A model generated the notes under the pieces. It ran no database searches, was not told the DNA's origin, and saw only the letters and a program-made list of their open reading frames with translations. This document shows, piece after piece, positions 12,180-64,000 of a stretch of 64,000 nt of DNA. The stretch covers positions 3,402,197 to 3,466,196 of the forward strand of contig NC_090789.1 in assembly GCF_040054535.1 (NCBI RefSeq), read 5' to 3'. Within the stretch, counting starts at the first letter, position 1. Each line of letters starts with the position of its first letter. This DNA comes from Antennarius striatus. Its lineage: Eukaryota; Chordata; Actinopteri; Lophiiformes; Antennariidae. A program made the position numbers and the translations under genes.

Positions 12180-15100
12180 CTGGTCTGTGAGGATTCGAGG
12201 CTTAATATCAGGAATGGGACCCCCTCTCAGCTCATCTTCCACAGCCATGAGTCTGACAACAGGGAAATAGAAACAAACATACTGGTTGACAAAAATAAGA
12301 CTTATGTAAAGCCGGCGTTCTTCAAAATTTCCTGCAGGACGGTTGCGGCCGTAAGATATTAATTCAGGCAACTTAAATTCAGCTGTTCTGTGTGCACCCA
12401 TCTGCTGTTCCATTACACATTTCCATCAGTAGCTGCAATTTAATCCTGGCATGAATCACTTCTCCTGTGCTTGATATCGAGTTACTTCAATAAAATCAAT
12501 TCCAGACTAAACTGGATTTGAGACCAATAGCAATTATGAGCCCAATGGGTGTTTCAGTACAATAGTTAAATGTGACAAATTTCGAGGAATCCAGTCTAAA
12601 TCCTGCTTTAAATGTACCCTGAGGAGTTTTTTGAGGGGCTACTGGTGTGTCGACCGGTGGGTCTCTTTATGTTCAGAGATGCAGACGAGCGTCAATTTTC
12701 AATAAAAGTGTAGCACACTTTTAAAGTAATAAAAAAAAAATTTAAAAAACAAAAACAAATGTCAGTCAAACCTCAAATGGTATAGGAAAAATATACATCA
12801 ATGCGATGGGAAGAAATGTTTTGAATGACGTTTAATCTTCGGTTACACACAAGCTTCGCCTCTTCAGTCAGGCGTTAAATCAGTTTTGTGCTTTTTTTTT
12901 TTTTTTTTTTTAAATGTAGAAGTTAAAAATGGTGTTTGTCTAAGAGAAAAACCTCCAGGGTTTTATTAAAATGCAGAGTTAAAATGTAGGCGATTTACCA
13001 TGAAACTATTAGCATCTCTAAATCCCACATTTACATATTTGAATTCATAGAATAATGAAACTGTAGAAACAGTTTGTGAGCTCTTTTTTTTTTTTTTTTT
13101 TGCTGTAGGGGTGTGCGATATGTATCGTCTAAGGTGATATCTTAAATGTTGTGCAAAAAAACAACAAAAAAAACAAGGATAGAGCCCTCGTTTTTGCTGA
13201 GTCGGACATTGAGGTTGCACGCGGTGTACGCCAGGTGAGTGGGCGTGGTCACTGCTCCGTAACGTTAAGAGGGGAAAATGAATGAACAGACAGCAACAAG
13301 GAAAAAAAAAAAAAAAAACAGCCACGCTGCCAGGCTCGCCATCCACTCTGTTGCAAAACCGGTTGCCGTTGACAACAGCTACACGACCAATGCGATCGAT
13401 TTGTGATTTTCTCATTTCCAACCGGGGCCGCCGTTCAGAAAGAGAAGAATATTGAGATGCTTTGGGGGTTCTGCTGGTCCACGACAGAACGCCACACACT
13501 CTCCAAATCGTATGGCAAAAATAAGTCCGACAACATTCAACATTTACACCACAAAAAAAAAAAAAAACAGAGCCAAATCGAACAGTTGCGATAAAATCAA
13601 TTTTAACTCCTGAGTGACACAATTTAAAGGATGCAAATTGTTCTTTATTATCCTTATTGACAAAATCATATAAAATATATATATCTTTTTTTTTTTTTTT
13701 GTCAATATCGCACACCCCTGTTGGATAGTCTGTTTCCCTCCATTTCCAGTAGTCATGCTAAACTAATCTAATCTAATTATCATCTGGAAAGATATTTATA
13801 TTTAATGTGGTGTCATTCGGTCATTCAATGCACCGCTGGTCACTTTTAAACAAAAAAATTTGGAAAAAAAAAAAAAAAAGGGGGGGGGGGATTTGAGCTT
13901 CGTTAGCCTCGTTCGTGCTAGCTGTAGTCCGGCCTGAACGCCAGTCACCTGTTGATGATGCCTTTGATTTGAGAATCCTTCTCCATCTGCTGCTGCTTCA
14001 GCCGCCGCTCGCTGTCCTCCAGCCGGTTCTGGTACTGCATCAGGATCTTGCTGGTCTGCTGCTCCTGCGACATGAGTCTCTGTTCGTACTCTTCCAGCTT
14101 ACGGTGAGACATCTTCAGACGCTCCTTCAAGGAATGGATCTCTTCTTCGTACTCCTTCACCTGAAATAAACGCCATAAATCATTTGAGTCGTGAGTAGGA
14201 TCGTTCGTGGAATGACGGTGGATGCACCGGAGAGCGCTGACCCTGTCTAGTCGTGACTCGTCCATGCTCTTGGAGTACTCCTTCAGCTGGCCCTCGCGGT
14301 CCGGCCGCAGGCTCTCGATGTCCGCCGACAGGTGAGGCATGTTGGACACCCAGGCCACCGTCCGTTCGTTGAGCGCCGGGGTGTTCAAGGTCGACTGAGA
14401 ACCCTGGAACGACATCAACGCGGGGTCAATCGTCGTGTTTTTGTTTTTTTAAACCGGCATCCTCCCAATCGGAGGCCCGTTCTGACCTGTTTGTTGCCCG
14501 GTTTGAGCAGATGCTGCTGCGGCGGCTGCAGCTGCGACTGCGGAGACTTCTTGGTGTTTTTGGTGGGCGTGTCCGTCGAGCCTTCCCCCGCCGCCGATGG
14601 ACCCTGATTGTCTTTGGCAGAGCTGGTCTGGTACGGCAGCCCGGGGGCCGGACTGTCCGTCACCGACAGCTGGGCGTCCTGTTGTTGCGTCTGTTGCTGC
14701 TGCTGCTGTTGCTGTTGTTGTTGTTGTTGTTGTTGCGGCGCCGCCTGTTGAGTTTGCCGCTGTTTCATCTGACCGCCGCCGAAGCTGGCGTCGGAGGAGT
14801 CCAGGAGGAGGTTCCGGCTTTGCGGGCGAACCTTGGGAGGTGTGGCGGTGGCCGGGTTGTTGATGGATCGCTGCGACTTCAGGTGTTGCGGCGGGGCCAT
14901 GGACGTTTGGCGAACGGGGTGGACCGTCGTCGGAGGTGTGGCCAAAGAAGCGGGGGTGCCTGTCCCAGTGGCGGTCTGGGATACGACTCCCATCAGGTGC
15001 TGCTGCTGGAGCGACTCCTTAGAGGACAGAATAGGGTGACAAAGAAATAAATAATATGCACTGTGGAGAATTTTAATATAATAAAAGCGTTTAAAGTAAC

Positions 15101-18100
15101 ACAGCTGGATGGAAAAAGGCTCAATCTGGGAGTCGATGCAGAGATGCTGCCGCTGCATCGCTGAACCACACGAAAGACCAACAACCGCTCATGCACACAC
15201 ATCTACGGACCATTTGGAACGTGCTGCCTGCTACACCACCGAGATGTGCGAGACAAGAAACGGAGGCAGGAGGAAGGAATTTTAACGAGGGGATGAGACA
15301 GCAGATATTTAATGGAGACATGTTGGCATGTCTTCCTTCTAGCGAGGCGGCGGCGGCGGCGGCGGTCCAAAAGGGAGCACAATTCACAGCTGCACCGCGG
15401 CGACAAGCACAAAGATGAAGACGCTAACCTTAACGAACGGGTAAAACGACAAAATAATTAACATATTATATATTATATAGCAGCGAAAATAGCTTCGCTG
15501 TACCTGAAGAAAATCACCTAATGTGATTTTTAAAGGGTGCATTTCTCTAAAAAAAAAAAAAAAAAGGTGTACGCTTAACTATTTTTAAAAAATTATTATT
15601 TTTTAAAATTTTTATTTTATACACCGTTATAATCCCCGAAGGGAAATTAAGAATGCACACTCTAGTTTTTGTTAGCCAATCACACGCATGCATATCAGTG
15701 TGTACAGGCCCCTGTAATACACACCATCGAACACAAGGGGGCCTGTAAGCATGCAGACGGAGGTAGAGTGGCGGGCAGCTCCTTCGTGAGCAGCTTGTGA
15801 GGGGGGGGAGCGGTGCGTTGCTCAAGGGCGCCTCGGCAGTGTCAGCTCATCTCCGGGTTTTTTTGTTTGGTTTTTTTTTGGGGGGGGGAGTGGGAATCGA
15901 ACCGCTGATCTCAGAACATTGGACGACCCGCTGAGCCACTGCCGCCCAGCAGATTTTCTACCTTTACGTTCTAAAACGTTTCCGCCGTTGGCGGTCCATT
16001 AGATTTATTGTTTCAGATAAGTGTTAATTCACATGTTGGACGTCAGTTTGGACGGTTCCTGTGGTATTTCTCTGCTGGAGACGGGCGGCAGGCAGTCCTA
16101 CCTGCACCTGCAGAGACAGCTGGTGCCAGGCGTAGTCGCTGCTCTGGTTCTGCCGGGTGAAGTCGTCGCTGTAACTGTGCGAGTGGACGATGCTGGGCTG
16201 CACCAGGCTGCTCTGCGACCGGAGCGCCGACAGGTCCTCGCTGCGGGAGAAGGCGTTGTTGCCAAAGGCCGGCTGGTAGTCGTGGTGTCCGTTCTCCGGC
16301 TCGGGGGCGAGGAGGAGAGGAGGAGGATGCTGGGATTGACCCGGGGAGTTCTGGGACGCCAGGTGGAATAAGGGGTTCTGGAACGACAGGGGGAAGTGCA
16401 TGGCCGCCGCCGCCTGCTGCTGCTGCTGGGAGATGGATTCCGTCGGCCCCCCGATGTGGCCCATCTGGCTCAGTCTCAAACCGGAGCCCGACGAGCCGGC
16501 TGGCATGTGGCCCCCCATTCGAAGGGGGCCGCAGAGGTTCCCGAAGCTGTGGCCCAGCCCGGCGATGGAGGCCTGGGAGGAAGTGAGCATGTCCCCCACC
16601 GAGTTCAGGTTGGAGATGCTGTTCATACGAGAGTCCTGGAGGTCCATCATGGACACGCTTTTGTTCACGCTGTGGACCTGAAGAAGAGGAACTTTAATGT
16701 TTTAGTCGTCTGTGAGTTATTTAAGGTTTTTTTTTTTTAACGTTGTAGGACAGGGGGGTCAAACCCTTTTCCACTGAGGGCCACATCAGCATAACAGCTG
16801 TCCCCGAAGGGCCAGATGTAACTTATAAATGTAAGTAAATGTAACACAAAGTAATGTAAAATAAATAACTACTGTTAATGTTAAATAACTGATTTTTTTA
16901 CTTATTCAATTTAAACATTAGTTTCACAGAAAAAAAATGTTTTTCTCTGTTATAATAAATCATAATTTTTCAGGTTATTAAACTCATAGAATTCCATCAA
17001 TCAAGGATCAAACTATCCAAGAGAATAAAGAAAAATGACATCAAACACAAGTTAGGACATTAACTTTATTCAAAGATAAAATGGGCTTAATGACTGCATT
17101 ATGGGAAATGTAGTTTTGGTCAAAGCACGCTTTAGATCTATTTATTTTTAGACATTGACCTTTTATGCTCTCAAGGGCCATATAAAATGATGTGGAGGGC
17201 CACATTTGGCCCCCCGGGGCCTTGAGTTTGACACACGTGTTGCAGAAGATATTAAACAACATCAAGACAGAAACCAGCCAATCAGACACCAGCTATTTTA
17301 CCTTGGGATCGGGTTCGGTGATGTCCGAGCTGCTGGTGCAGTAGGCGGGGCTGGAGCGAGCCAGTGGCGGGCGGGTTACGTAGAACACCTCCCTCGATGA
17401 GCGGAGGTCTCGCTCTGCTTGACGCCTCATGTTCAAATTGGATGAGAGAGATTCCACAGCAGAGACGCCCGTCGTCGGCGACGGCAGGCGGGAGATGTCG
17501 ATGGAACTGCAGGAACACAACGAAGAGAGTCTGATTCTGAGTACGGAGTCGTGTGGATTTAAATGAAGTTTAAATTTAAATGAAATTTGATGATGAAATT
17601 CAAATGTTTAGCTCATGCAAATGTTACTTCATTGCATAGAAACACTAAGAAAACAGGTGCATCATGGGAACATACCTGTTTAAGTCATGCATCATGAGGC
17701 TCTGAAAGTCAGAGGACATGAGGCGGTTGAAGGACGGCCGTGAGAACAGGCGGTCCTTCGGTCGGTCCGGCTGGTGATTGGTGGGCATGTGCAGCTGGGG
17801 GTTCCTCAGGGCCACGCTGATGTCGTTCAGGAGCCTCGGCAGGGGCCCCAGTTTCAGGATGGCGTCCTGCAACACGGAAACGGCTTTTTTTTTTCAAAAT
17901 CAGCGGCAAATTCAAAGCACTTCCTGCTCAAATAACACACGTAGGGACGCGCTGTAGGTGTATCTGCACCGATAATGAACTTAAGTGAAGTAAATGAACT
18001 AAATTAAGAGAAATTATTCTTTTATTTTCAGTTCGGCTTCATGTTTATTCAGTTACGAGTCATCACCTCTTTAAAGAAGTAGAAAACACAGTTAATAATA

Positions 18101-21100
18101 AATGAACTGAATGGGTTTTAATGAGAAGAAAGTGCGAAAAGCAGCTTTTAGGGGTTTGTTATTCCACAAAATAAATAAATCTAACTATTTTATACTAAAG
18201 CTAACAACATGCACTTTTTTAAATACTACCAGATCAGCACTTCCTCCCATTAAATCATTTACTAAAATATTTCTTAACTTTCATTATGCTTGACAATAAC
18301 TGACTTTATAGCAAATATACTAAATTTTAATTAAGTCAATTTACGCAGTTAGCATGTTTAGCACCTAATTATCAAACACTTCTTCATCATTCGGAGCGCC
18401 GTCCTTGCTGACCTTGCTCAGCTGTCCCATGACTTCCCACAATAAGCTGTGCAGCATGGACAGCTCTCTGCCGAGGTCGATGTAGCCCTCGAACCCCCCC
18501 GCGTTCCCTCCGGCGTCCATGTTGGAAATCTCATAGAGGAACTGCTGCATGGACCCCCACTCCATCTCCAGGAACTCGTTCATGAAGTACATGTACTCCT
18601 CCTTCGGGCCAAATCTGCAGGGCAAAAGACATCAAGAAGCACATGAATGAGAATTTCACCTTAAAAATAATTGATTTGTTTTAGTCATTAGATACTAAGC
18701 ATTAAATCTAATTATTAAATGGCCAACAGAGGTACTAAATTTTAATTATAGGTGCATATAGAAAGAGAATTATGGATAGACCCCGCCCTGTTGCAAACAG
18801 GCATATAGCTGGACGGACATGCCTCACCCTGTGGGACCCCTTCACTGGGGATTTAGCACGACGACTCACTTGCTGAAGCTGGCCAGGTTCTGCATCACCT
18901 TGGCGATGAGCGTGAGCGTGCGGGACGTGCGTTCGGCGGGGTACTCCTGCATCAGGTTGAACAGGGAGGGGGACATGATGGCCGGGCACATGAAGCTGAG
19001 GAACAGGGAGGAGCTGATCAGGCCGTCGGCGAGATCCTCTCTCCCGCGTTCGGCGCATCTGGCTCTCCACGAGGCGAAAACCTCCTTCAGCTCCCGAGGA
19101 AATATGCTGAAACGAGAAGATGAAGTTTGAGAGCTGGATCAGATCCAGAAGCCCCTCAGGAAATCTGAAGGAAAAACGACAGGATTCCACTCGGAAAACG
19201 ACGCTTATGAGATCAGCGATTATAGAAATGTGGAAAGACGTCTGAAGAATTCATTTCACGTCTCGCTTCTGTTTGTTTTTTGAGTTTACAAAAAGAAATA
19301 TTCGATATTTTTGCTCCAAATAGAGACAAGAAAGACAAATTTCAAATGTGGAAAAAACCCAATCGTGTTGCCTTCAGGGAATGTGGGAATGATTTTACAC
19401 CTCATAATAAACCCCAAGAGACTTTTAAATACTTGACATAACATATGCATTTTGTTTTATTGGGGGGGGGGGGTCTCACCAGAGAGAGTTGATAATCTTG
19501 CAGAGGAGCAGCTCGCAACACATCCGAAGGTTAGCTTGATGGTCGGCGAGAACCGACGGCGGGACGCGCATCGGATCCACCTCGCAGTTCTCCTCTGACT
19601 CGTACAAGGCTCGAATGAAGTCACCTGTAGGTTGAAAAATACCAAAAAATGATCAATAATCAATCAATGCACAGATGATGATGAGGACGATGTGACATAG
19701 AGATGCACAAATATCTCAAAAGCTTTATTCTATATTCTCCACCTATCTTTAAATAGAACACTATTTAAACGCGGAGTACCTATGGCGTCCTTGAGGTATC
19801 GGTGACCAATCAGCTTGAGGTACTCTTCCACAGCCTTCGTCGCTAACGTGTTCTCTCGAAAGATGAGGTGCTCGCGGTCCATGAATCGATCCACCTCACA
19901 CATCGCCATGTCGGACAGGAACTCCTGCGGCGAGAACAAAAAAATCGCTCTCAGGGTCAACGGGGTACGGGAAAAAAACCCAAAAAAAAACCCCATTTTG
20001 TAATCAGATTACATCCGCACGCCTCCCTTTACCTTTGTCTTCCCCGTGCTTTGGAGGATGTGCACCAGAGCGAACGCCACCTCCTCTTTGCTTTTGACAC
20101 TCAGCAGAGGCTCTAGAACTGCACACAGTGTTCGGTAGTTGTTGGTGATGTACTCCGCAAACTCCTTGTACAGCTCCATGGGTAGAATGTTCATAGTCTG
20201 GTAGCGAGATTTGACGCGTAGCGACGCGTTGATCACCTTGGTGCTCCCGACGCCGCCGCTTTTGGCCAAGACGCTGGATTGAATCACCGGGTACCACTGC
20301 TCCACAAACTGCCGGCCCGTGATGCTGGAGATGGGGATGCTGACGAGGCCGAGATACGTGCTTTTCTCCTGGATCACAAAACCAAGATTGTATTTCTATA
20401 TAACATCACTTCTCGGCGCAGGAGGCCGCGTTTCCCTCAAATCGAAACGGAACCGGCTGGTCACCTTGCGTCTTTTCTTGTCCGTCTCCTTGTAGAGGTG
20501 CAGACGAAGGCTACGAATGGTAGGCAGGTTGTTGAATTCGAAATGCTCGCCCCAGAAGACGGTGTCGGTGCGGGGTTTGCTGGTGGTGCGGGCGTACAGC
20601 ATGTCGTCCAGACACAGCTCGCAGTAGTAACGCTTCTTAGCGGGGAGGTCTCGGGCCTCGATGATCCACATCTTCAGCACGTTGTCCACCCGCCTGCTGT
20701 TGTCCTGGAATTGAAACGGGACGTCCTGTTACTGCATTATAGCAGCCCTTTAATTACATCTGTGGGTCATGTTGCAGTCGTACGACGAAAACGAGAAACG
20801 TCGGATGTTTTTTTTTGGTTTTTTTTGTTATTTTAAGTAAAGCCATGGTATTTACTTTGTTCGGTTTGACGGCTCGTTGCAGGTTTTCGATCCACTTGTC
20901 CCTCTCTGAGGCCGATCGACAGGCGAAACATTTCGTCCCCGAACTGGTGGTCACCTTCAGGCAAAGACAAAGTTTCAGCGCATTTTTTATTACGGTGAAA
21001 TTATTTCATTATGATGCGACATTTTTAAATATCTTAGTTTAAAAAAAAACAAAAAAACATATGCCTCTATAAAAATGGCAAGTTTAAACGTTTATTATCC

Positions 21101-23796
21101 TGGAATGACAATTTATTTATATCCAAGATGTTAAAAACTGTCACCAGGAGCTTTATCTCTTCTATTTGTCCAACAAATTCAATTAAATGGCTTGATGGGT
21201 TTTAAACAAGTCCATTAGCGGGTAGGCAAAAGGTCACGCAGAACAACCCACCTCGAAGCAGTATTCTTGTCCTAAAATACTGGAGTGGACAGGTTTTATT
21301 ATCGCCTCTTCGTCTAAAACCAGATCCAAAGCCTCGGCGGCGCTGCTAGGAGAAAGCAGGGATTCATGGGAGTGGGATTCCTTGAAGCTCTGCATCAATC
21401 GTGTCCTGGAGAGAGAAGACGGAGGGATTCAGACAGCCGTCGGTCTCCATATATCGATCATGTCGCCATTTAAAACAAACAACTCACGCACACTTTCAAA
21501 CATTAGCCGCTGGCGCCTGTTTTTTTTGGTGTGATTTCTGCATCCTGATCCTTTCATAATGAGTTTTGTGGAAGAGATAAGACGACCAGATTTCCAGTTC
21601 TGGCGTTTGCAGTTTGGTGTGTTGATTCCGCACATGTGACTCATTCTGCATGTTTGTCTCAGCTTTTTTTTTTTTTTTTTTTGTCTGCAAATTAAATTCT
21701 AGTTTAGCGTCGCTCGTCTGCACAAATTCTGCTCACCACGAAGCATCGGTCACCTCGCTGTAAGATAGAAAATTTCCGATCAGAAATAAATGCAGGTTGG
21801 AGGTCTGGTTTTGAAGAGTTGTCGGCCGCCGTCGCCAGGCCGCATGCACTGAGGGAGGCTCTTGGTAAACCCACTTGGCAGCAGAGGGAGAGCAGCTGCG
21901 TCGGAAAGCTGGAGAGCGATTCGGCTTTAGAGCAAAGTCAACCTGACATTACCGAGTGACTTAAGCGCCGAACAGCTTCCGAAGGAGCAGAAAATCCCTT
22001 TTTACCCGCCGTCGTCGCCACCTCCACCTCACAGGATCCCCGGGTTAATTTTATTTTAAGACCCGCGTGTTTTTTTCCTGCCTCACTGAGGACCATTACA
22101 TCCCTTTTCTAAAATGACGTTTCACATCTCAAGCTTTGGACAGCCACACCTGGCCTCAAAATGTCTTATATATATTAATTTATATCTTGTGACGGTAAAG
22201 GGGGGGTGGGGGTGTCGCTTCAGCATTACACTTCTGCTTCCTGCATCTCCTCCTCTGCATCTTTAACATTTCCCACATGGGGTGTCGTGACAGAATTGTG
22301 TGAGGGCTGCATAAAATTTTGATGGCGATGCAAGTCGGCTTCTTCCTGGGGGATAGCAGTCTACGGAATCCATACGCAGCGTATTCCTATACATGTAGCT
22401 GGAGAGGTCGGGACAGGTCGTGTGGGGGTCTATTGGGGTGGGGAGGGGGTTGCAGGCATTGAGTGCTTTGGGGGTGAAGTGTACATTTTTGAGGGTCCAA
22501 AAAAAACCTCATTTTTATGTCACACAACTCTTTCTGCTTCTCTCTTGTTCTCCAGAACAACAACAACAACAACAAAAGGTCTTCACACCTTAACCAAACC
22601 ATCATCATCCTCATCATCATCAGCGCCGTCGTACCGCCTACTTTCTCACCGCGGGACGCCGGTCCCAACATTCTGCTTCCACACGGCGTTGTGCAACTAC
22701 GCGTTCTACGCTACGCGTTATAATCACAGTCTTCATCAGTCGGGGTTGTGATGGAATAACAAGCGAAACCTTGATGCTGGAGGTTTGAAATCTTTCAGCT
22801 GCATCAAGAAGAAACGTCGCCTTCAGCAGGAGAAACAAAAAAGCGGTTGAACTCCTTCAGCTGTCGATTGTTGAGGGTATTAATAACTTGATTTGAGTTA
22901 CACTTCATGTGTTTGCCTGTTCTTTTCGGGTCCGTGTGGGTTTTTTTTCTTGCTGGGTGCGCCAGCTTCCTCCCACAGCCCGAAAGCAAGATCCAGAGGA
23001 ACGCAGAATACACCGTTATTTTTCACTTTTATTTGGTCAGGATCGAAAAAAACTACATGTTTGATAGGAAAGGAAATACAAGTGGCTGGACAGCATCCAA
23101 AAAAAAAAAAAAAAAACACAAAAAAAAAAACCCTAACAACAACGCTTTTAAGTAATTCCTATTTTCTTTTCTGCGATAAAATTCAATGCCAGGTCGAAGG
23201 CTTTTTGAATAAAGTTCAAGATAAATAAATAAACCGTAAAAAACAAAACTTTTTAGCATTTAACCGCGCAAAAAAATGGCCTCAAGGGTTCAGGAAGTTC
23301 AGTCTGCTGAGGAATGGGACGTTAAATCGATCAATTTGGTGCAAAAAACATTTAAATCTTTTAAATTCAGGATTGATTACCGATGCATTCTGGGTAGCAG
23401 GGATAGCGGAGGTCACTCACCTTTCTTGGTCAGCGCTCCGAAACCGAGGAAGAATCATTTGTCTGAAGCTGCTGGTCCGGTCCAGTTTGGGTTGACTTTT
23501 GGCCCTCTTGATGGAGCCCTTCAGCCTCCGATTGAGGAAACTCTGGATGGAAAATGTGAGAAAATTAAAAAAAAAAGTTTCGAATAAAACGCAAGAAAAA
23601 TATCGAACACAGAACTCGAAATGCATGAAACTGTCAACTCTCCTTCAACCGTGGCATCTGTTTCCATGGGAACAGAGAGCTTCCATGCTGATTTGAACCG
23701 TACTCACCGGCTGTCTGAAGGGCTGGGGGGTGGCGTTGGGAGGGGTCTCCATGCTCGACTGCCTGACGGAGGCAAAACTTGCCCGGCGAGATTGGT
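12180..23796 (-). CDS. syngap1: SynGAP, synaptic Ras/Rap GTPase-activating protein
   Basis: Accelerates GTP hydrolysis on Ras and Rap in the postsynaptic density. Coding exons, 5' to 3': 23796-23708, 23542-23421, 21405-21252, 20954-20856, 20704-20465, 20368-20033, 19924-19780, 19624-19480, 19106-18870, 18614-18413, 17866-17676, 17506-17302, 16677-16102, 15017-14487, 14403-14242, 14160-13949 and 12252-12180. All join in phase with GT-AG borders, giving about 1,239 residues (human about 1,343). Order: second half of a PH domain ([27 protein letters not shown]), C2 domain ([19 protein letters not shown]), RasGAP domain with arginine finger [10 protein letters not shown], a Ser/Gln-rich linker with 15 glutamines, and a coiled coil ([15 protein letters not shown]). 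The linker ([32 protein letters not shown]) and [10 protein letters not shown] separate it from DAB2IP and RASAL2. Oddities: FLRF is FLSF; the amino-terminal half of the PH domain and the QTRV tail were not found. The 5' and 3' ends are therefore incomplete. Confidence 0.92.
13106..13720. mobile_element. hAT-like non-autonomous element (MITE) in a syngap1 intron
   Basis: A 615-bp segment bounded by inverted termini: AGGGGTGTGCGATAT on the left and its exact complement at the right end, 13706-13720. Long T and A homopolymers sit inside. The termini resemble hAT superfamily ends, but no clean 8-bp target duplication is visible. There is no transposase. The 249-codon open frame spanning it arises from homopolymers and element sequence. 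Confidence 0.65.
14691..14735 (-). repeat. Polyglutamine-coding CAG/CAA tract in syngap1
   Basis: Fifteen consecutive glutamine codons in the exon at 14487-15017, followed after one Thr by three more. Codons mix CAA and CAG, which usually slows slippage. The tract sits in the disordered linker between the RasGAP domain and the coiled coil. Confidence 0.9.
15555..15948 (-). mobile_element. tRNA-derived SINE in a syngap1 intron
   Basis: On the minus strand the 5' end reads like a tRNA gene, with an A box TGGCTCAGCGGG (15927-15938) and a B box GGTTCGATTCC (15893-15903), the two internal RNA polymerase III signals. The body has the common fish-SINE phrase CTTGAGCAACGCACC, and the 3' part has AATTTCCCTTCGGGGATTA before an A/T-rich tail. 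It lies in the intron between exons 16677-16102 and 15017-14487, same strand as syngap1. The boundaries are approximate. Confidence 0.75.
16751..17239 (+). mobile_element. hAT-family MITE, full-length copy with target duplication
   Basis: A 489-bp element starting CAGGGGGGTCAAAC and ending GTTTGACACACGTG, inverted termini of the hAT type. It is flanked by 8-bp direct repeats matching at 6 of 8 bases (TTGTAGGA at 16743-16750, TTGCAGAA at 17240-17247), the hAT duplication length. Related copies are at 62531-62990 (minus) and, truncated, at 46298-46430. It has no coding capacity and lies in a syngap1 intron. Confidence 0.8.
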
Positions 23797-37222: not shown

Positions 37223-40200
37223 TCATGTTCCCACGGCGCTCTGCTTCACCACCATCTTCTGTCGAGCGCCCTTCGCCGCCGCCGACGAGTCAAGTCCCGC
37301 CATCCCTCCGGAGGTGTTTGGAAACCCGTGCGCGGCCACGTATTTCCGGTAAGCCTCTCGGATGATGCGGAAGGCTCGCGTGTTGGCGTACGGGATGTCG
37401 GTGACGGGGTCTCGGTACAGCGCGGCCTTGTGGGTGACGGGACACACCTCCTGGACGGGGAGCTGGGGACTCGTCTGGTCCCTGTGAGGGAAGGCTGCCT
37501 CGAAGGCCTCGTCGTCGCTGAACGTGATGTAAGTACGGGAGCACAGGCCTCCAGCGGGCTGCTGGGAAGGAGTGGAGGGGTTCTGTGGCGCCGTTTGAGG
37601 GACGTCTTGATCCAACCTTTGGAAAACAGACAAATATGACATTTAGACAAGTAAAAAAATCAGCTTTTGTTTCATTCTCTTGGTTTGTTTTGGGCATATT
37701 TCTGTCGGGTTTTGGGACGTGATGTCCTAAATTAATTAAGGTTCTGTGTGGAGGATTTAAGGGGAAAGACAGAATCAATAATCTTTAAAGCTTTTGTTGG
37801 TGTATAATTAACATTCTAACTACATTATTTGTGATCCCATTAACGAGAAAGATATTGTTTACCCTTCTACATCAACGTTTTCTTCTTTTAAGGTGGCGTG
37901 AGACACCAGCGGCATCAGGACCGAATGGTAGCGGATGGTCGGTCCTTCAAACCGTCGCTTCTTGTGGACTTCTTTCTTCTTGTCTGCCTCCAGGCGTTCA
38001 TAGTTCTCTACAAACAGAAAGAAAATGAGTAGATAGAACCGTCTGAAAGGTCACGAGCGACCGGCGCCAGGCCTGATGTCTTATTAAAGACGGTAGACTT
38101 GATTTTCTGTGGAGGAACAGTTTCTCACCTAAAGATCGAATGTTGATCTCGGCTGTTATTTTGGCCTCGGCCAGCAGCTCCTCTTGGGTCAGGGGTCGGT
38201 CCCGATGAGCTCCTCGCCGTCTTCGAGGGGCGTCCTGACGTTCTTGCAGACGCAAGTTGGTCTTTCGGGTGTGCTCGCTGGTAGACTGTCGGACAGACTT
38301 CCGAGCTAAAGGAAGAAGAAACTCACAGCTTTAGAAAAAAGGTCAAAGAGTGACCGTCTGTGAACAGCGTTTGATGCAGCTGTGATGTCATCTTGCGTGT
38401 GAGTGAACGAGTTTTAAAATCTTACTCTCTGCAAAGTCTTGATATTCTTGCGGAATCCTCCGTTTGAGTTCTACTTTTGTTTTCTCTGTCTTCTTCTGTT
38501 CCTCTGACGGTCTTTTAGGTTTGGGTTTTGGCACCTTTATTGGTTCCTTGGATTAAAAAAGGAGACAAAAGACTAGGTCAGAACAAACAAACAATGAATG
38601 ACCAAAATATCCCTGTGGAAGTCAGAAATGATTGCTTGTGACCGTAACTGAACATATTGTGATTCCAAAGCCAGATAAAAATGAGCAATTGTGCTTCTTC
38701 CTCCCACAGCAACTGTTTAGAGGAAGACATTTGGCAACTAGTGGCTCCAGGAAAGCTGCAGAGCACTTATGGAACACAGATCACAGTGGAATGTGTGGAT
38801 GAAAAACAAATACCAGGAAACTACTTAGGAAAATTAAACGTTTCAATGTTCATTTGAATCAATCACCAAAAACATCACATGCAAACATAATTTCATGCTG
38901 CACTGTCATCCCTTAGGCGTAAATGTTGACTCATGGAATTAATTCTACCTTGTACGCTTTGGTAACAACCCGACTCTTCCTCCGAGGTGCATCCTCCTCC
39001 TGGTCGCTGTCTGGCTCGTCGCCTTCGTCGATGTCAAAGTCGCTGTCGACCTCATCCTCGGTGTCTGAATGTTCCCCGTGATACTCGTCATCACCCGATT
39101 CCTACAACAAAAAGCATATAATTCAGCCACAAACACATGATGTAAAAATGTCCCTGAATTTAGTCCCTGGGATTGACATGACAACATGATGTTGATCTTT
39201 TTACTGTCATCATATTTAATTTACTTGGTGGTAATTCAATTGTGACTCCATTGCAAACTACATTTAGATCAGAGCCTCCATTTATGTCCAAGCAGAAACA
39301 CGGCCTCTGATTGGTCAACAAATAATGAACACTGACTCCAATTGGTGGTTTTGAGTAAATAAAACCCAAATGTGGTGACAAAGACCAACATTGCTCCCAA
39401 GGTGAAGAGACTTGACAGATATTTTTAGTCACACTTGTCCCCAAATTTAAATATTTGCACATGCATGGTCACGGCATGCCAGCTGAGATGACTGAGTCAT
39501 CACAGGATTTGCGGTTTTGCATTTATCTGCTCTTGTCAAACCTCAGCTGAGAATCTCAGCCTGAGATTAACGTCAGAACCGCCAGCGGAACGACTGACAA
39601 ATCCCCCCACGCAAACGGACCCCTGAACCGGCACCTATTTAAAGACCGGACGCCAAAAAGCAAACTGAGGATACATATCTGCATCACTAATGTTTCTTAT
39701 ATGGAATGCAACCTGAAGCCTTTGCAGCACTTCATTCTTCAGTTTAATTTTGAAGCAGGTATAGTGGAACCTTGGTAACAAAAGGATTCTTGACCTTCAG
39801 AATGCACGGTCTTGCATGAATGAAGAGGCTCTGATATAAAACACTGTATGAGCATCACTTCACTTAAAGAGCGATGATTTACACCCAGCTAGATTCCACG
39901 AATATATCTCGCAATGAATATTTAAATATAAAGATGTTTTTTTTTAAATATTAAAAACTGCATAGTAGGAAAATGAAACGTACATTGGTAACATTATTTT
40001 TTGTTGTGAACGAGTCTTTGACGTAATATGAAGCAACACTCGTTGAAGGAAATGAGCGACATCAGTGCTGCGTTCAAGACACTTTCGAAAACGGGAAAAT
40101 ACAAACACTAATGTGTTTTGAAACTTGTTTACTATTCATTAATATGTAAATGAGGTTTCCGTCACTACATTTTTTTCACAGACGCCTTTAATGATCGATA

Positions 40201-41804: not shown

Positions 41805-43634
41805 TCATATTAGTTTCATGGTAACCCTGCTTCTTTCCATGTAGCTGGACGTCCCTCCCTTATTAGTAGACTCGGCACTTCTTGGCACATATGCTATTGT
41901 GGCTGTGTGCTTTATTTTCCCTTTGCTCTTGCTCCAGAAGAAAATGAAGACGAAGCAAACGCCTACCGAGCTGGAAAATGAGAGGAACCCGATGGTTGTT
42001 GCAATCAGCAACGTCTTGACATCTAATGGGAGTGTTTGAGTTCCATTCACGCTCGGAGAAGCCGAAGGAAAGGCAAACCCTCCTTTGAGGTGAAATGGTT
42101 TCTTAGACGATGATGGAAAGCCTTGGACATGCAGGCTAACTGTCAGGCTGTCATTTCCTGCCGCGTTCGATGCCACGCAGAGATAAGTGCCGCTGTCTTG
42201 AGGCTGAGCGTAGCGAACCTCTAGCGTACCATTATCCAGAGCCTGTATCCTACCAACGGGAGATAACGCTTCTTGCCGTGGGTCTAGCCAGGTGACAGAT
42301 GGTGCTGGGTCCCCTTCTGCATCGCAGTAAAACACTACCGTCTGTCCCTGATCCACTGACCCCCCTTGAGGCTTCCGGGACAGAATCCGAGGCCGTCGAC
42401 ACGTCAGCAGGCCGGGAACCTCAGCTTCGACGATATCTTGAAAACTCCAGCCCTGCAGCTGGACGGAGGTAGAGCAAGTCGGTGGATCTCCACCAAAGTC
42501 CAGATTCAGTCGCCTTTGCACCACCCACAGCAAACGGCAGTCACACGTTAGTGGGTTGTTATCAAGTCCTAGAGTTTTGAGGGTCTCCACTGAATGAAAA
42601 ACTCCAACTTCGAGCGTGGTGAGAAGATTTCTAGACACGTTCAGCAACTCCAAATGTGCCAAACCTCTGAACGCTCCATTTTCGATGGATATCAGCGATC
42701 CCCCCGCCAGGTGAAGCTCTTGTAGTCGGACCAGTGCTCCGAGCAGGTTCCCTTGAATGTGCGAGATCGGATTAAAAGAAAGGTCAAGGTAAACTAGATA
42801 TACAAGATGTTGTAAAGAGACGTACGGGACAGCACTGAGTTTAGAGTGTCTGATGGTGAGGGACGTCAGGTTCAGGTCAAAGAGAGAGTTTCCTGAGAGG
42901 TTCTCCAGCCAAGGACATTGAGAAAGCACGAGCTCCTTGAGACGCTCCAGACGGCTGAAGGAGTAGTTTGGCAGCGTGGAGAGGCCCAGCTGGTAGAAAC
43001 GAAGAACCTTCAGCCTGCCAAGCTGTGCCAGAGCTTCAGTCGGTACCGCCGTGAGGTTGCGGCCGTCGAGCTGCAGCTCTTGCAGGCCGGACAAACCAGC
43101 AAAAGCTTGATGGGAGATGAACACCAAGTCATTACCTGTCGCTTTCATGAACTGCAGAAGCGTCAAGTCAAGGAAAGTAAAATCTAGAAAAACAAGAATT
43201 TCATTGCTGCTTATGTCGAGAAATTTCAGGTTTGACAAACCAACAAAAGCCCCCACAGGTATGATTTTAAGGCGGTTGCGAGCGAGATGCAGAGTTATCA
43301 GACGTTGTAAGCCAACAAAGGCCTCGACTTCAATCGTCGACAAGATATTGTCGCTCAAATCCAAGTCTATGAGTTGTGTCAGATTGTGGAACTGCTGCCG
43401 TGGCAGAGTCTTGATGGTGTTATGAGTTAAGTTCAGCAGTCTGGTGTCCCGTGGGAGATCGATGGGCGCTGCGGTGAGGTGACCATCGGAGCAGTTCACC
43501 TCCAGGGGCGTGGCGTAGCAGCGGCAGGGCTGAGGACACGGCCACCGGGTTTCAGACGTCAGCGCCACCCCGGCCGTCAACAGGTACAGAGCCCCCCAGC
43601 ACAGCCACTGGTGGATGGCGACCCCCTCAAACAT
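41805..43634 (-). CDS. lingo4: LINGO4, leucine-rich repeat and Ig transmembrane protein
   Basis: A 609-residue type I membrane protein of the LINGO family (Nogo-receptor partners in neurons; the LINGO4 role is less defined). The whole coding sequence is one exon, as usual for LINGO genes. It has a signal peptide (about 1-25), an LRRNT cap with cysteines 33, 37, 39 and 48, roughly a dozen leucine-rich repeats (66-365), an LRRCT cap (C374, C376, C397, C422; PLTCDCRLLW), an Ig domain (C447 to C496, DSGTYLCVASN), a TM helix at about 551-577, and the tail SKGKIKH to VTMKLI. The VT-K ending and the location beside vps72 (human LINGO4 is at 1q21.3) favour LINGO4 over LINGO1-3. The frame stays open upstream to 43802, but a clear acceptor (CTCCTACAG) lies 11 bases before the Met at 43634, so the upstream part is intron and that Met is the start. 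Confidence 0.93.
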   Translation of the reverse strand: MFEGVAIHQWLCWGALYLLTAGVALTSETRWPCPQPCRCYATPLEVNCSDGHLTAAPIDLPRDTRLLNLTHNTIKTLPRQQFHNLTQLIDLDLSDNILSTIEVEAFVGLQRLITLHLARNRLKIIPVGAFVGLSNLKFLDISSNEILVFLDFTFLDLTLLQFMKATGNDLVFISHQAFAGLSGLQELQLDGRNLTAVPTEALAQLGRLKVLRFYQLGLSTLPNYSFSRLERLKELVLSQCPWLENLSGNSLFDLNLTSLTIRHSKLSAVPYVSLQHLVYLVYLDLSFNPISHIQGNLLGALVRLQELHLAGGSLISIENGAFRGLAHLELLNVSRNLLTTLEVGVFHSVETLKTLGLDNNPLTCDCRLLWVVQRRLNLDFGGDPPTCSTSVQLQGWSFQDIVEAEVPGLLTCRRPRILSRKPQGGSVDQGQTVVFYCDAEGDPAPSVTWLDPRQEALSPVGRIQALDNGTLEVRYAQPQDSGTYLCVASNAAGNDSLTVSLHVQGFPSSSKKPFHLKGGFAFPSASPSVNGTQTLPLDVKTLLIATTIGFLSFSSSVGVCFVFIFFWSKSKGKIKHTATIAYVPRSAESTNKGGTSSYMERSRVTMKLI

Positions 43635-43881
43635 CTGGTGGCCTGTAGGAGACCGAGAGAGAGCGACAGAAAGAGAGACAGGCAGAGAAGTTAGAAAGAG
43701 ATGATATTTACTGATGACTGGAAGCTGATTGGCTAAAGGAGATGATGGGTTTTGTCTTTGGAGTCTTGCAGACACTGGAGAAGAAAAATTAGACCTGACC
43801 AAACGATCCCAGATGGAGGCGGTGAATCATTTCTGTCAAACTGCAGATGGAAAAGTCTTCATTTTTTATTCAGTGTTTAAT

Positions 43882-43982: not shown

Positions 43983-46297
43983 GCATATTGTGAACCAGCT
44001 GAAGAATTTCTGTTTTATTCTTTTTCAAGTCTTTAAAATTAATGTTTGATTGAGATTGACTGCAGCAAAAACCAGACAAGGTTAAAGCTTTAAATCATTT
44101 ATCATTTTTTTGTCGCTCTGACCCTGAAGGATAACTGTAAATAAAAATGATTTTCCATTTCCAAGGTCAAGAACTCGGTACTCTGACTTTAATTACGTCA
44201 TGTGGGGGCGGCAGAAGCAGGATTCTATTTTTCTGCATAATTTCTTTTATTTTTTAAAGTAAAAAGAAGATCAGGAGGAAGCCAATTGGTTCTAATCTTG
44301 GGGGGGGGGGATGACTCATCTCATCATAAATTGCGTGAGTCACTAAACGGGTTTAAATCTCCAAGCGCAAATAAACAGATAAACAAAGAAATGAAATTCC
44401 TCGGGTGTGAAGCCACCTGTGGTTCTGGCAGCTCCGCTCGCATGTCGCGCAGGAAGGTGTGACACTTTGGAGCGTTTCCATCCAATTCCTGCAACATTTA
44501 TTTAAATGTAAATGCAGAACATTCAAAATGAACTCTATAATGACATATTTTCTTCAAGTCTTCTCAAATGATTTTACACCCGGATGACTGGATTTATGGA
44601 AACACATCGCGCACACATTTCTAAAAGAGGTAATTGTGTCGGAGCTGGGGGGGGGGGGGGTAGCGCTGAGCTCCTCCAGGGAGCGCAAAATTCTAGAGTG
44701 AAAATTGTGTGCAAAAGTGAAACTGTAGTTATTTACTGTGGTGTGACAGAATAAACACGCTGGATTGCACCGTGAAAGGCTCCTGATTACAGTAGTGTCA
44801 TAACTCACCCGTCTCCTCAGCCTGGGGGGGTTGTCATTGCGGCAGCTCCGAGTGTTTGTGAGGATTAATTGTTGCTTCAAGCAAAGCCGGAGTGGAGTTT
44901 TCTGATCTATCAGGACCACCTTAGAAATAAATCCAGAAGAAATCCGCACGGTGAGAGAAACAGAGACGCATCACAACAAGAGAGCTCCATCCTCCTCACT
45001 GAGGAGAAGTCTTCCTCCGGAGGATGAAGCGGTCGATTCCCCCCGTCGCTTCTCCGTCCTCATGGCAACAACAACAACCTGGCTCCGGATGCTGGAGCGC
45101 TCGGTTCATGCTGGGGAATTATATGGTGGAGCTCCTGGACTCCATCCAGAAGGCTGCTCTGGATGACAGGAGGCAGGAACGGGTCAGCAGAAACACAGAG
45201 ACGCGGGGATAACAGCAGATGGGAATGAATAATAATCAGGAGTGTCTTGACAGCCATCTGAAAGGTTGGCACAACAACGATGTCTTGATATTATTTGGAT
45301 TTTTAGTCACATCATTACACGAAGGCACAAACTGAAGCCCCAACATGTCATTTTGACATTTCTGTCACGTCTCCATGAGCTGAAGATGATGTCTGAACAG
45401 TCACACTATAACCCTGGGCTGAGATTTAGGTGTCTGCAGCTGCATCAGATCAATAAATCCATCAGGGGTTCTTTTTTATGTTGTTGTTGTTGTTTTTTTA
45501 TCGTTGGAAACGACAGTCAGAGGAACGATGAAGCGAGACCTTGAAAGGCTCGCCCACACCTTCATCTTTCAGCAAACCCACAGTCTGTCTCTGAGTTCAC
45601 TTTATATGCAAATTGTCTCACTTTGCATGCTCACCATCCAGTGCAGAACAATATATTTGTTCAGTGAAATAAAAAAGATGTGCATGCAGGGATTGTGTTT
45701 CCTGTTGCCTTTACAGATTAGTTGTGTGAAGGAAATTAGATATATGGATGGATTGTTCCGAATCTGAATGAAACTAAATGCATTCTGAGTGAATGAGATG
45801 CACAAAGTAATGAAGGATGTAATGTGTTAAACACACTTGTGTCATACATTAAACACCAGAACTAATCTGAAAATGAGGACCAGGGAGGAAAACACAGAAC
45901 AAAGAGCTCAGATGAACCCGTAAAGATGATCCTGCAGGTCTGACGTGGTTTAAATCAGTTTAAATCTCAACACATCAGAGAATCAGACCTTCAACCACCA
46001 GCACCAAAAAAAAATAAGTGAATGAGGAACCAACAATATCAAATTTAGATTATCAGGAATGAATTTTGATTCTTATAGTGCTAGACTTTAATTCAGAGGA
46101 GTCAGCACTGGGGGGGGGGGGGGGGGGGGAGTCCATCCCATCAGGACCGCTTCACTGGGCCTGTCTTCACCGGACGCGTCCTGATGCAGCATCAATGCTA
46201 CGGATCAGCTGATGGGAGCAGATGTCAGAGGAACAGGTGATGCTGACCTGAAGAGTTACCTGAAGGGAAACCACGTGGACTGGAGGTTCCACTGGAT

Positions 46298-46430
46298 CAG
46301 GGGGGGTCAAACTCATTTTTACTGAGGGCCACATCAGTATAATGTCTGTCCTCAAAGGGCCAGATGTAACTTATAAATGTAACTAAATGTAACTCAGTGT
46401 AAAGTGAAATGAATGTAAATACTCCTCAGT
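46298..46430 (+). mobile_element. Truncated hAT MITE (5' part)
   Basis: Starts CAGGGGGGGTCAAACTC and follows the element at 16751 for about 130 bases (GAGGGCCACATCAG, GGGCCAGATGTAACTTATAA), then ends without a 3' terminus. It lies about 165 bases upstream of the MHC class I promoter. Confidence 0.75.
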
Positions 46431-60120: not shown

Positions 60121-63100
60121 GGGCTCCGTTAAAAGCTTCCCTCCAGCCGTAAAAAGGCCAACGCCTTCCACTCTGGTTGTAATAGCTGTAACGCTAAATA
60201 TTTAACGAAGCAATGACCTCATGTGTGATATCTGGGGGGGGGGGGTGGCGTATTTCCTTATTAATAAAGATTCGGCTGCCTGAATAATAATAAATCTCCT
60301 GGTTTCGATCACTTGTGAGTTTTCTCCCCCACCTGCTTTGTGAGTCCCGTAATCTTCAGTCGGTAGCGCTGCCAGACCGGCGTGTCGGTGCCGGTGTCCA
60401 CCAGCTCGTCCGTCTGTTTGACCGTCTTGATGGTGGTGACCTGGAAGGAAACAGATCTTCACAGACACGCCAACTTTTTCCACACGCAACTTGTGGATTT
60501 TTTTTTTCCTTCTATATGTAGAAACAGGAAGCAGATGATCTATAATATACGACACAATCGTGCGATTCATCACGTCGCTCCATTGGGATCGGCGACGCCT
60601 GTGTACGACTGATGGTGAAATCATCAGGCCCGTCGTCCAGAGAGAGGCTCATTACCCCCGACGGAGGAGGTTAATGAGGCAGGATCTCTCAAAAAAATAA
60701 ATAAAATAAAACGCCACAAGGAATTTGATTAAAGTTTTTGGAGAGGAAGAGGATGGATTTCTCCAACACGGCCATTAAAAAGCCTTATTTAGAAAATACT
60801 TCTACATTTCCTGCTCATGCAGATCCATGTCTTTGATGAGATTATGGGTTATTGAGACACAAACTCACTGAGAACACTTTCTCCGGGTAACCCTTCGCTC
60901 GCATGTTGGTGTCGTGTACCAGCTTCAGGATCATCCAGCCTTCGTCGTGTTTGCCATTCTGGGAAAAAAAAAGAAAGAAAGCAAACGTCACACCGTCAAA
61001 AACCTTCCTTTATGTTTTTACCCGTTAAAAAGGGGGGGCGTCTTCTGACCTCTAAGTAGAAGCGTGGGCTCTCCGGCATGGCGCTGAGGGCGGCGATGGC
61101 CGCCACGCAAGGAAACGCGCAAACCAACACGAACACGCGCCAGCTGTGGAACTGATACGCCGAGCCCATCTGGAAACTCCATCCTGAGAAGACAAAAACA
61201 ACACCAGAAAATGTGAATAAAACAGATATATATAACAAATATTTGGGAATATTTCAGTTACTCTACTCACCATAATGTGGGATTATAGCCCAGGCCATGG
61301 CGGAGGCATATATTCCCCCAATCATCCAGAACATGCAGAGCCAGCTGAGATGTTCGCCGCGCTTCTCTTGGGCCAGAAATTCAGAATAGAAGGAGAAGAC
61401 GATGGGGATGGAGCCGCCAATCCTGCAAAGACCAGAAAGCAACTCAACTCAAGCAGATTAAGAGCTGCACAGAGAGATCAGATTAACAGAATTTTACAAC
61501 AAAAAAAATCTTATATTACATAATTTATTCATTGAATGCCTTTATTATGGACATGCAGACATGGTTTCATACCCTGAAGGAGATCCTTTTTTACAAGCAG
61601 AGATGCCGCGGCTTTAATCTCCTTTAATTTAATGCATTACTTACTTTGTTTTTGGTCATTCAGGTTTTCACATTGACTCTCATTAGTCCATCACCATGGA
61701 GCACAACCAAACTCACAAAAACCTGCAAACTGATTGATATCCCCACACGTAGGATTCCAGCATTTTCAATTTACCACTTCACTACACCGGAGAAACTGCT
61801 GCTATTAAATTAAATCAAAACTCTTAAGCGTTTGGAAACCCGACTGCGACCCAGAGGGATAACCATCGACACTTATTTTACCTTTCTGCAGCAGAGAAAA
61901 CATTTTACAATCAATTAATCCAAATGTTAAAAATGATTGTGTTCCATCATTTTTGCGGCTGATTTCTTTAGGGTGTCTGAACTTTTCTGTTGGCTTCCTG
62001 AGGTCATAAAACATCGGTCCCTGAATGCATCGCTTTTCAATTTACCCAACGCCCGAGAGGAGCCGGCAGAACAGGAAGGTGCTGTAGCCCTGGACGAAGG
62101 AGGAGAAGAAGGAGAAGATGCTGTTGATGGAGAGCGAGATGAGGAGAGACTGTCGACGGCCTATCCGGTCTGCCAGAGCCCCCCAGAGAAAAGCCCCCAC
62201 CATCATCCCGAAATATACAATCAGACCTGCGGAGAGAGAAAAAAGAAACAAGTGGTTTATCTGTGTTTTTACATGAATTTTAAATTTACTGTCACAGGTT
62301 TAAGCCTTCCTGTCTGCTGTCCTCCCACTGTCAGATTACAGGTTTGTGTTTATTCAAAGCTTTTGCTCTCAAGAAAAGTGGAAAACACGTCCGACAATAT
62401 TTCCTCTTCTTAAAAGATCAGACATTTCTCTCTCTTTTATCCCACTGTCAACTTCTGCCTCCAGAATGTAGAAACCAATCAGAAGTTCTCTCTGTATAAA
62501 ATCCAATCACAGATTTGTTTTTTGTTTTTTGGCCCTGTGGGCCAAATGCGGCCCACGAGAGCATAAAAGTGTCAAAAAATAATAGGTCAAGTGTGGTTTG
62601 AGAAAAACTGCATTTCCCACAATGCACTAATTGAACCCATTTTAACTCTGACACAAAGGTTTTGAACAAAGTTAATGTCCTAACTTGTGTTTGATGTTTT
62701 TATTCTTTATTCATTGATAGTTTGATCCTTGATCGATGGAGTTCTGCGGGTTTAATAACCTGACAAAATAAAAGGATTTATGTTACAACAGAGAAACATA
62801 TTTTTGTGTAACTAATGTTTGTAACTCATATAAGTCATAAATTCGGAGTTATTTAGCATTAAGGAGTAGTTACATTTATTTTACATTAAATTGAGTTACA
62901 TTAAGTCACATTTGTTAGTTACATCTAACCCTATGAGGACACTTGTTATGCTGATGTGGCCCTCGGTGAAAATGAGTTTGACCCCTCCTGATATAAGCAG
63001 ACAGGAGGAGGAGACGAGGTCGCGTCCTACCTAGCATGCTCTTGTTAGGTTCCGACAGGCACATGTCCCTCTCAGCGCTGGGGAGGACGAACCCGACCAC

Positions 63101-63640
63101 GAAGATCTCGACGCCGTCCGCCATGAGCGCCAGCCCCAGCACAAAGTACAGGGTCCACTGGAACTTCCCGTGACCGCATTCCTGCAAAATGGTCTCGTAC
63201 TGCTGGGCCAGCTCCTCCTGGTCCTTCCTCCTCTCGGCTTCGGACACGCCGATGTCTCTGAACTGCTGGGCGCCGGCCCTCACCGACCCCGGGCCCCCAG
63301 CCAGGCTGCCTTTGCCCGAATCGGCCCTGGGAATTCCTTGGTATTCACCTTCGTAGATTTCATCATCCTCGTCGTGACCCTCGGTGGAGTCGCTGTGACC
63401 GCCCTCGTCGTCGTTGGCGGCCTGGCTGTCTCCCCGGTAATAGGCCCCTCCGTCCTGGCTCCCCTGCACGGGGTAGTCGTCATCGTCCTCTTCAAAACGG
63501 CTGTAGGAGCGTCTGCTGTACTCGTCGTTCATCCGATCCACCGTCCGACCGGCTTTCTTGGACGCTTGCCGCTTGACTTCTTTGGCAATGTCTTTGGCAC
63601 CTTTGATAAACGCAGTCCGGTTTTGGTAATTGTCCTCCAT
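57067..63640 (-). CDS. sv2a: SV2A, synaptic vesicle glycoprotein 2A
   Basis: A 12-TM major-facilitator-type protein of synaptic vesicles, needed for normal calcium-triggered release and a partner of synaptotagmin. Coding exons, 5' to 3': 63640-63031, 62226-62046, 61422-61271, 61183-61050, 60958-60869, 60440-60333, 59438-59350, 59257-59093, 58983-58850, 58046-57840, 57740-57581 and 57250-57067. All are in phase, about 737 residues (human SV2A 742). It has a long acidic cytosolic amino end (EEDDDDYP, EGHDEDDEIYEGEYQGIP), TM1 at about 161-190, the MFS loop ALADRIGRRQ, GIGGSIPIVFS, then the lumenal pentapeptide-repeat domain (KSMVFEDSVFEECYFEDIT) with three glycan sites NFT, NCT and NST, then TMs 7-12 ending TRGQVLQ. 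GLIVYFGMMVGAF and GSIPIVFS favour SV2A over SV2B and SV2C. Human SV2A is at 1q21.2. A hAT element lies in intron 1. Confidence 0.95.
60065..60117. repeat. TG dinucleotide microsatellite in an sv2a intron
   Basis: About 26 TG units. Confidence 0.95.
62531..62990 (-). mobile_element. hAT MITE copy in sv2a intron 1
   Basis: Minus-strand copy of the element at 16751. It begins CAGGAGGGGTCAAACTCA at 62990, runs through GAGGGCCACATCAGCATAAC and CATCAAACACAAGTTAGGACATT, and fades at GGCCCACAGGGCC near 62531, so the far terminal repeat is eroded. It aligns along nearly the whole length of the other copy. Confidence 0.8.
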
Positions 63641-64000
63641 TTTTCAAGAGGAGGGGAGGGGGGGGGGTCAAAGATATGTGCTCACGATGCACCTGAAAGA
63701 TCTGAGAACTCCCAAGTATATCTGTGGACAAAATGGAAAGATGATGTCATAATTAAGTACTCATACTGGTACTTGCAAGTATTCAAATATCAGTACCCGT
63801 ACTTGTATTCTGATGAAAACTGGCATCAATGCATTAAAAAAGGAAAAAGTGATCTCAAAATGACCAAAGAAACCATCAGATGCTAAACGTGTGCAGATAG
63901 AAACACCCATTATTTAGCCTATATATTTACACGGGTGCAGTCATTAGCTCCAAACAAACTAATTACCCCTTAATGGGATGTTTCCAGTCTGTAGCCGTCA
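63641..64000. other. 5' flank / untranslated region of sv2a
   Basis: Minus-strand 5' leader upstream of the sv2a start. A possible acceptor (TTTCAG at about 63.69 kb) suggests that the coding exon begins shortly upstream and that a separate 5' untranslated exon lies beyond the window. No coding sequence. Confidence 0.4.

Follow-up and report, generated by a model that had tools for sequence, protein, structure and literature searches.

The window analysed here, a stretch of 64,000 nucleotides from the genome of Antennarius striatus, carries on its minus strand a gene in which PH, C2, RasGAP and coiled-coil domains follow one another in the order found in SynGAP. The PH domain is encoded in an open frame at 21234-21428 (Pfam PH_RASGAP, 92 bits) and ends in an exon placed in part at 20856-20939; the C2 exon lies at 20465-20704 (Pfam C2, 28.2 bits, window 20396-20728), and an exon likewise placed in part, at 20033-20362, holds the end of C2 and the start of the RasGAP region. 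The RasGAP domain comprises an exon with the arginine finger R485, which is present and intact (19778-19924), an exon of which the coding part was placed and which ends in CKIINSL (19482-19622), the exon at the position of the FLR motif, here FLS (18870-19106; acceptor ...tttcag, donor gtgagt; Pfam PF00616, 57.2 bits over 78 residues; hereafter the FLR exon), and an exon bearing K642, the conserved lysine of PKEEY (18413-18613). Beyond the GAP domain lie SynGAP exons at 17675-17866 and 17302-17505, a large linker exon at 16108-16677, an exon preceding the coiled coil at 14242-14403 (Pfam DAB2P_C, 149.1 bits, window 13945-14448), the coiled-coil exon at 13948-14160, which matches SynGAP 5JXC, and an exon past the coiled coil at 12180-12254, the last exon found in this copy that is shared with a second SynGAP copy on contig C9 of the same assembly. 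An open frame at 14418-15188, also on the minus strand, belongs to the SynGAP linker, includes a long polyglutamine stretch and has a partial match in the C9 copy.

The best PDB match of the window copy was rat SynGAP 3BXJ (E 7.8e-226; 13 matches, with no DAB2IP or RASAL structures among them). A tree of seven sequences paired the window and C9 copies (support 95) and separated these two and rat SynGAP from four paralogues of this genome (support 93); in the GAP domain, the window gene is closer by sequence to SynGAP than to DAB2IP/RASAL-type paralogues. In the placed exons the frames are open and GT/AG signals occur at the ends read; placement was incomplete for the linker at 14403-16108 and for the 5' exons that precede the PH domain. 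In each of eight exons, the window and C9 copies differed most at third codon positions, with 11, 7 and 33 nucleotide differences at codon positions 1, 2 and 3 of the FLR exon. Because the frames are open, the splice signals present and the differences biased towards third positions, we regard this as a conserved coding gene that does not look decayed and reject a pseudogene, which bears out, for the placed exons, the statement of a first-pass annotation of this DNA that the splice sites are clean and the gene is not a decaying one.

The minus strand of the window carries several other features. A single open frame of 673 amino acids with leucine-rich repeats and an I-set domain (41808-43826) is, we presume, LINGO-like. 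Exons of YL1/VPS72 (Pfam YL1 and YL1_C) lie at 37226-38330, and a C-terminal query of 105 residues from this gene had a single match across the whole assembly. A further open frame at 62918-63643 is without a Pfam match, and we take it to resemble the N-terminus of SV2A.

Substituted residues and the RasGAP loci of the genome

Codon 18997-18995 in the FLR exon reads AGC on the minus strand and encodes Ser where rat SynGAP 3BXJ has Arg, as seen in sequence, translation and alignment, and codon 19024-19022 of the same strand reads GGC and encodes Gly where the alignment again places Arg in 3BXJ. In rat/human numbering these are R596S, which replaces the FLR arginine (18995-18997), and R587G, which turns DRL into DGL (19022-19024), both exactly where the first-pass annotation had placed them. 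Residues of the GAP domain were counted from finger R485, and the letters at W572, R573, S590, S604 and K642 agree with those named in the available text of PMC11418247. A third replacement, N635S (18878-18880, minus strand, codon AGC), which turns LANF into LASF in the same exon as R596S, is absent from the first-pass annotation; Asn occupies this position in six comparators (the C9 copy, rat SynGAP and four paralogues of this genome, over 243 aligned residues) and also in p120GAP and neurofibromin, and is absent from the IQGAP-type loci of this genome. The equivalent residues would be p120GAP N942 and neurofibromin N1430.

These replacements differ in the weight they can bear. The Gly put forward as a second change is present, but it counts for little because neurofibromin has Gly there, both in the PDB and in the NF1-like exon of this genome. 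K628, K642 and the proline four residues past the FLR arginine are retained in the window copy. The proposal that the rest of the fold is intact holds for the arginine finger, but N635S alters the interface region.

The FLR exon was searched against the window's own assembly (548 Mb, 42 contigs), and seven matches were listed. Among these, a 100% match occurs at the window only and the next, at 86% identity, lies on C9, where a second SynGAP copy near C9:21457327-21457560 keeps DRL, FLR and LANF and reads DRL...FLRFLCPAI; the five further matches listed all keep FLR. This genome has two SynGAP loci, the window gene and the C9 copy, as the earlier naming of the former as a SynGAP paralogue had implied, and exon breaks are identical between the two copies in the parts compared. 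We also considered whether the window locus holds an alternative exon bearing Arg and rejected this, a single match on C14, the contig of the window, being found among the seven listed for the whole assembly.

Searching the same assembly with the Pfam RasGAP domain yielded at least 31 exon matches; the census of loci is a lower bound, and several of the 31 matches fall in other parts of the domain or share a locus; the weak match C14:11300031 (E 1.15), in which the motif was unreadable, was left out. The FLR site was readable at 15 RasGAP loci and is Arg at 13, Cys at one and Ser at one, the window, in keeping with the description of this arginine as near-invariant. The Cys is encoded in a RasGAP-like exon, LLTCFICPAVVKP, on the minus strand at C3:29081132-29081704, a locus that we assume to be GAPVD1-like; the gene names used for RasGAP loci of this genome, SynGAP excepted, are likewise putative. 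Three of the 13 Arg-bearing loci have YYR, the IQGAP-type motif, and since these keep the arginine, yet IQGAPs are reported in the available text of PMC12871552 to be inactive, the FLR arginine alone is no readout of activity.

The PDZ ligand and divergence of the two copies

One exon of the C9 copy ends in TSFPPWVLQTPV-stop, in which 10 of 12 positions are like the mammalian alpha1 ending. No alpha1-like PDZ-ligand exon was found on the minus strand of the window, where the best match to the mammalian ending was 5 of 12, or on either strand of 34.5 kb made up of the 3' end and 20 kb past the window's left edge, a stretch without N in which the best agreement was 5 of 12 with the mammalian ending and 6 of 14 with that of C9; the search extended to 32 kb downstream, and a diverged or more distant exon would escape it. 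In zebrafish, according to the available text of PMC11266194, an alpha1-like isoform is reported for syngap1b and not for syngap1a. Because zebrafish syngap1a is reportedly likewise without this isoform, the lack of an alpha1 exon bars the isoform and not membership of SynGAP; because no such exon was found, as in zebrafish syngap1a (PMC11266194), the window copy is probably a syngap1a-type duplicate, an assignment made solely on the missing PDZ-ligand exon. The suggestion that this copy keeps scaffold and C2 functions is consistent with its PH, C2 and coiled-coil parts, but the above search turned up no exon for an alpha1-like PDZ ligand, which makes a link to PSD-95 doubtful.

When 84 kb of C14 were compared with 50 kb of C9, of which 5 kb are N, the shared SynGAP exons and short repeat-like matches were recovered, and no other common gene. 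Window positions 16751-17250, 46290-46383 and 62715-63013 share such short matches with C9:21453881-21454522; this is a dispersed repeat, present within introns of both SynGAP copies. Exactly 5000 N in a row occupy C9:21462501-21467500, upstream of the second copy's C2 exon, and may conceal its PH exon, none having been found in the 50 kb of C9 examined (5 kb N). Scans of genome-contig and viral-contig collections for fish relatives found none.

The window copy evolves faster than the C9 copy. Over 305 residues of the GAP domain, with rat SynGAP as outgroup, the window copy has 18 changes of its own and the C9 copy five (binomial p 0.011), and branch lengths in the tree are 0.129 and 0.021, respectively; these relative-rate tests are post hoc and rely on one outgroup and small counts. 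The counts use 64 of the 110 residues of one exon (the remainder being without gap-free rat alignment), drop three C2 residues of rat that are missing from both copies and omit 13 GAP sites, three of them in the FLR exon, at which all three sequences differ. Within the FLR exon, the window-specific and C9-specific changes number eight and one (p 0.039, a generous value because the exon was chosen for its change). Of the exons compared, this one is the most conserved, with one shared change relative to rat as against 30 in the other GAP exons, and the ratio of window-specific to shared changes is 8:1 there versus 10:30 in the other GAP exons (Fisher p 0.0007). The density of window-specific changes in the FLR exon (8 of 79) versus the remaining GAP domain (10 of 226) fell short of significance (p 0.09), and the coiled-coil exon showed no rate asymmetry (window 5, C9 6). 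Of the 79 codons of the FLR exon, 30 differ synonymously between the two copies and 12 by a replacement, so that both Arg changes sit within real long-term divergence.

Seven residues of the window copy depart from columns that are invariant in the six comparators: I494V, K504R, I584L, R587G, R596S, L598M and N635S. The same count made as a control for the other sequences gave 0 for C9, 6 for rat, 1 for C15, 6 for C3, 2 for C18 and 37 for C8, and seven departures are therefore not unusual across the domain, rat SynGAP and C3 having six and C8 37. With C8 excluded, the window copy has 12 departures, seven of them within the FLR exon; the corresponding figures for the other five sequences in this exon are 0 to 3.

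Expected consequences of losing the FLR arginine

In neurofibromin, the arginine of the FLR motif, R1391, forms a salt bridge with KRAS E63, and R1391A is reported to lower GAP activity 400-fold while affecting binding marginally (PMC7437355, available text); the earlier expectation that loss of the FLR arginine should weaken GAP activity finds its support in this mutant. Plexin Arg1001, the equivalent residue, steadies the finger and enters a hydrogen-bond network with the backbone of Rap switch II, as described in the available part of PMC3787391. By analogy, one would naturally expect the window copy to have lost much of its GAP activity, towards Ras as well as Rap. Other reports qualify the analogy. 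Mutation of the FLR motif of Dictyostelium IqgC reportedly abolishes the interaction with RasG, so that Ras binding need not always survive loss of the motif (PMC12871552, in part), and QM/MM calculations predict that removing the charge of R903 would aid hydrolysis with G12D Ras, so that effects can depend on the GTPase (PMC10515638, in part). For SynGAP itself, the available text of PMC11418247, the one source found in a literature search for SYNGAP1 with R596, names R596C as one of the variants of uncertain significance that lie at the GAP-Ras interface and counts R596H with those whose tertiary bonding was judged to be affected. A search for neurofibromin with N1430 found no literature, and loss of the FLR arginine was absent from the titles and abstract openings of the matches listed for syngap1a/syngap1b and teleost SynGAP paralogues.

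The explanation that we favour, with a probability of about 60%, is that the window holds an intact-looking, syngap1a-like SynGAP duplicate whose GAP domain would fold and bind Ras but be catalytically weakened. R596 would normally keep both the arginine finger and switch II of Ras or Rap positioned for the transition state; lacking it, the domain could still bind Ras-GTP while speeding up GTP hydrolysis by one to three orders of magnitude less, an effect size borrowed from neurofibromin R1391A, that is, from another protein and from Ala instead of Ser. Most of what the window copy does might then depend on its PH, C2 and coiled-coil parts, with perhaps a weak buffering of Ras-GTP besides, and the C9 copy would supply the normal GAP residues and PDZ anchoring. 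Taken further, R596S, together with N635S, may be fixed in the syngap1a of one fish lineage, which would make this copy GAP-attenuated, Ras-binding and devoid of PDZ anchoring and would leave catalysis and PSD anchoring to the other copy; we put this extension forward tentatively, as possible and on balance doubtful.

Private alleles and errors of the consensus would mimic such a change, and the species itself might carry Arg: one assembly was available, and the AGC and GGC codons each lie one base away from CGC, an Arg codon. We think this rather unlikely, as the same exon holds six further window-specific replacements (eight in total) and the 30 synonymous codon differences from C9. An error at any chosen base is, moreover, rare in chromosome-scale assemblies. 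Alternatively, Ser may be harmless, or compensated through C2 and other contacts, leaving GAP activity near normal. The retained finger, K628, K642 and proline would be compatible with this, dual-specificity GAPs are reported to require their extra domains for Rap activity (PMC3787391, in part), and the FLR exon carries an additional positive charge, Q618R. However, position 618 is Arg in the FLR-bearing paralogues C15, C3 and C18 as well, and Q618R therefore reads as ordinary family variation and no clear replacement; with neurofibromin R1391A losing 400-fold activity despite an intact finger (PMC7437355), we regard compensation as improbable.

A shift in specificity, in which loss of the Arg pairing with Ras E63 would harm Ras more than Rap and leave a Rap-biased GAP, draws on the contrast between the salt bridge of neurofibromin R1391 to KRAS E63 (PMC7437355) and the Gln63 that Rap has and uses in catalysis (PMC3787391; both in part). 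Because the equivalent Arg of plexin contacts Rap switch II by hydrogen bonds and steadies the finger (PMC3787391), activity on Rap should fall too, and we consider such a bias very unlikely.

A weakened GAP domain in the window copy, our preferred reading, can be set beside known systems. The copy is like SynGAP (SYNGAP1; rat 3BXJ and 5JXC) in domain order, arginine finger, K628 and K642, and differs by R596S, N635S, R587G and the alpha1-like PDZ-ligand exon, which was not found. The syngap1b-like C9 copy, its best other exon match, is distinguished by DRL, FLR and LANF, the shorter branch and the exon with the PDZ ligand. Mice with GAP-dead SynGAP (R485L/F484A; Araki et al. 2024, as cited in PMC11418247 and PMC13296960) reportedly lack the severe deficits of haploinsufficiency, in the available text of both papers, and a weakened GAP in the window copy fits that report. 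In both cases the GAP domain is present, with catalysis removed in the mouse and presumably reduced here; in the mouse the finger is mutated, whereas in the window copy the finger is intact and the FLR arginine was lost naturally, in one of two copies.

These mice re-opened the question of whether the synaptic role of SynGAP lies in GAP activity or in structure (PMC11418247 and PMC13296960, in part). If R596S is indeed fixed in a fish lineage and weakens the GAP, the window copy would be a natural counterpart of the GAP-dead mouse, with catalytic and structural roles separated in an evolving vertebrate. Such a natural weak-GAP copy, if fixed, would offer an evolutionary test of the GAP role against the structural role and would caution against handling syngap1a and syngap1b as interchangeable genes in fish models. 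The GAP-related domains of IQGAPs resemble the window copy in combining a RasGAP fold with changed active-site residues, but they carry Thr at the finger position and YYR in place of FLR, and so keep the arginine that the window copy has lost (PMC12871552, available text).
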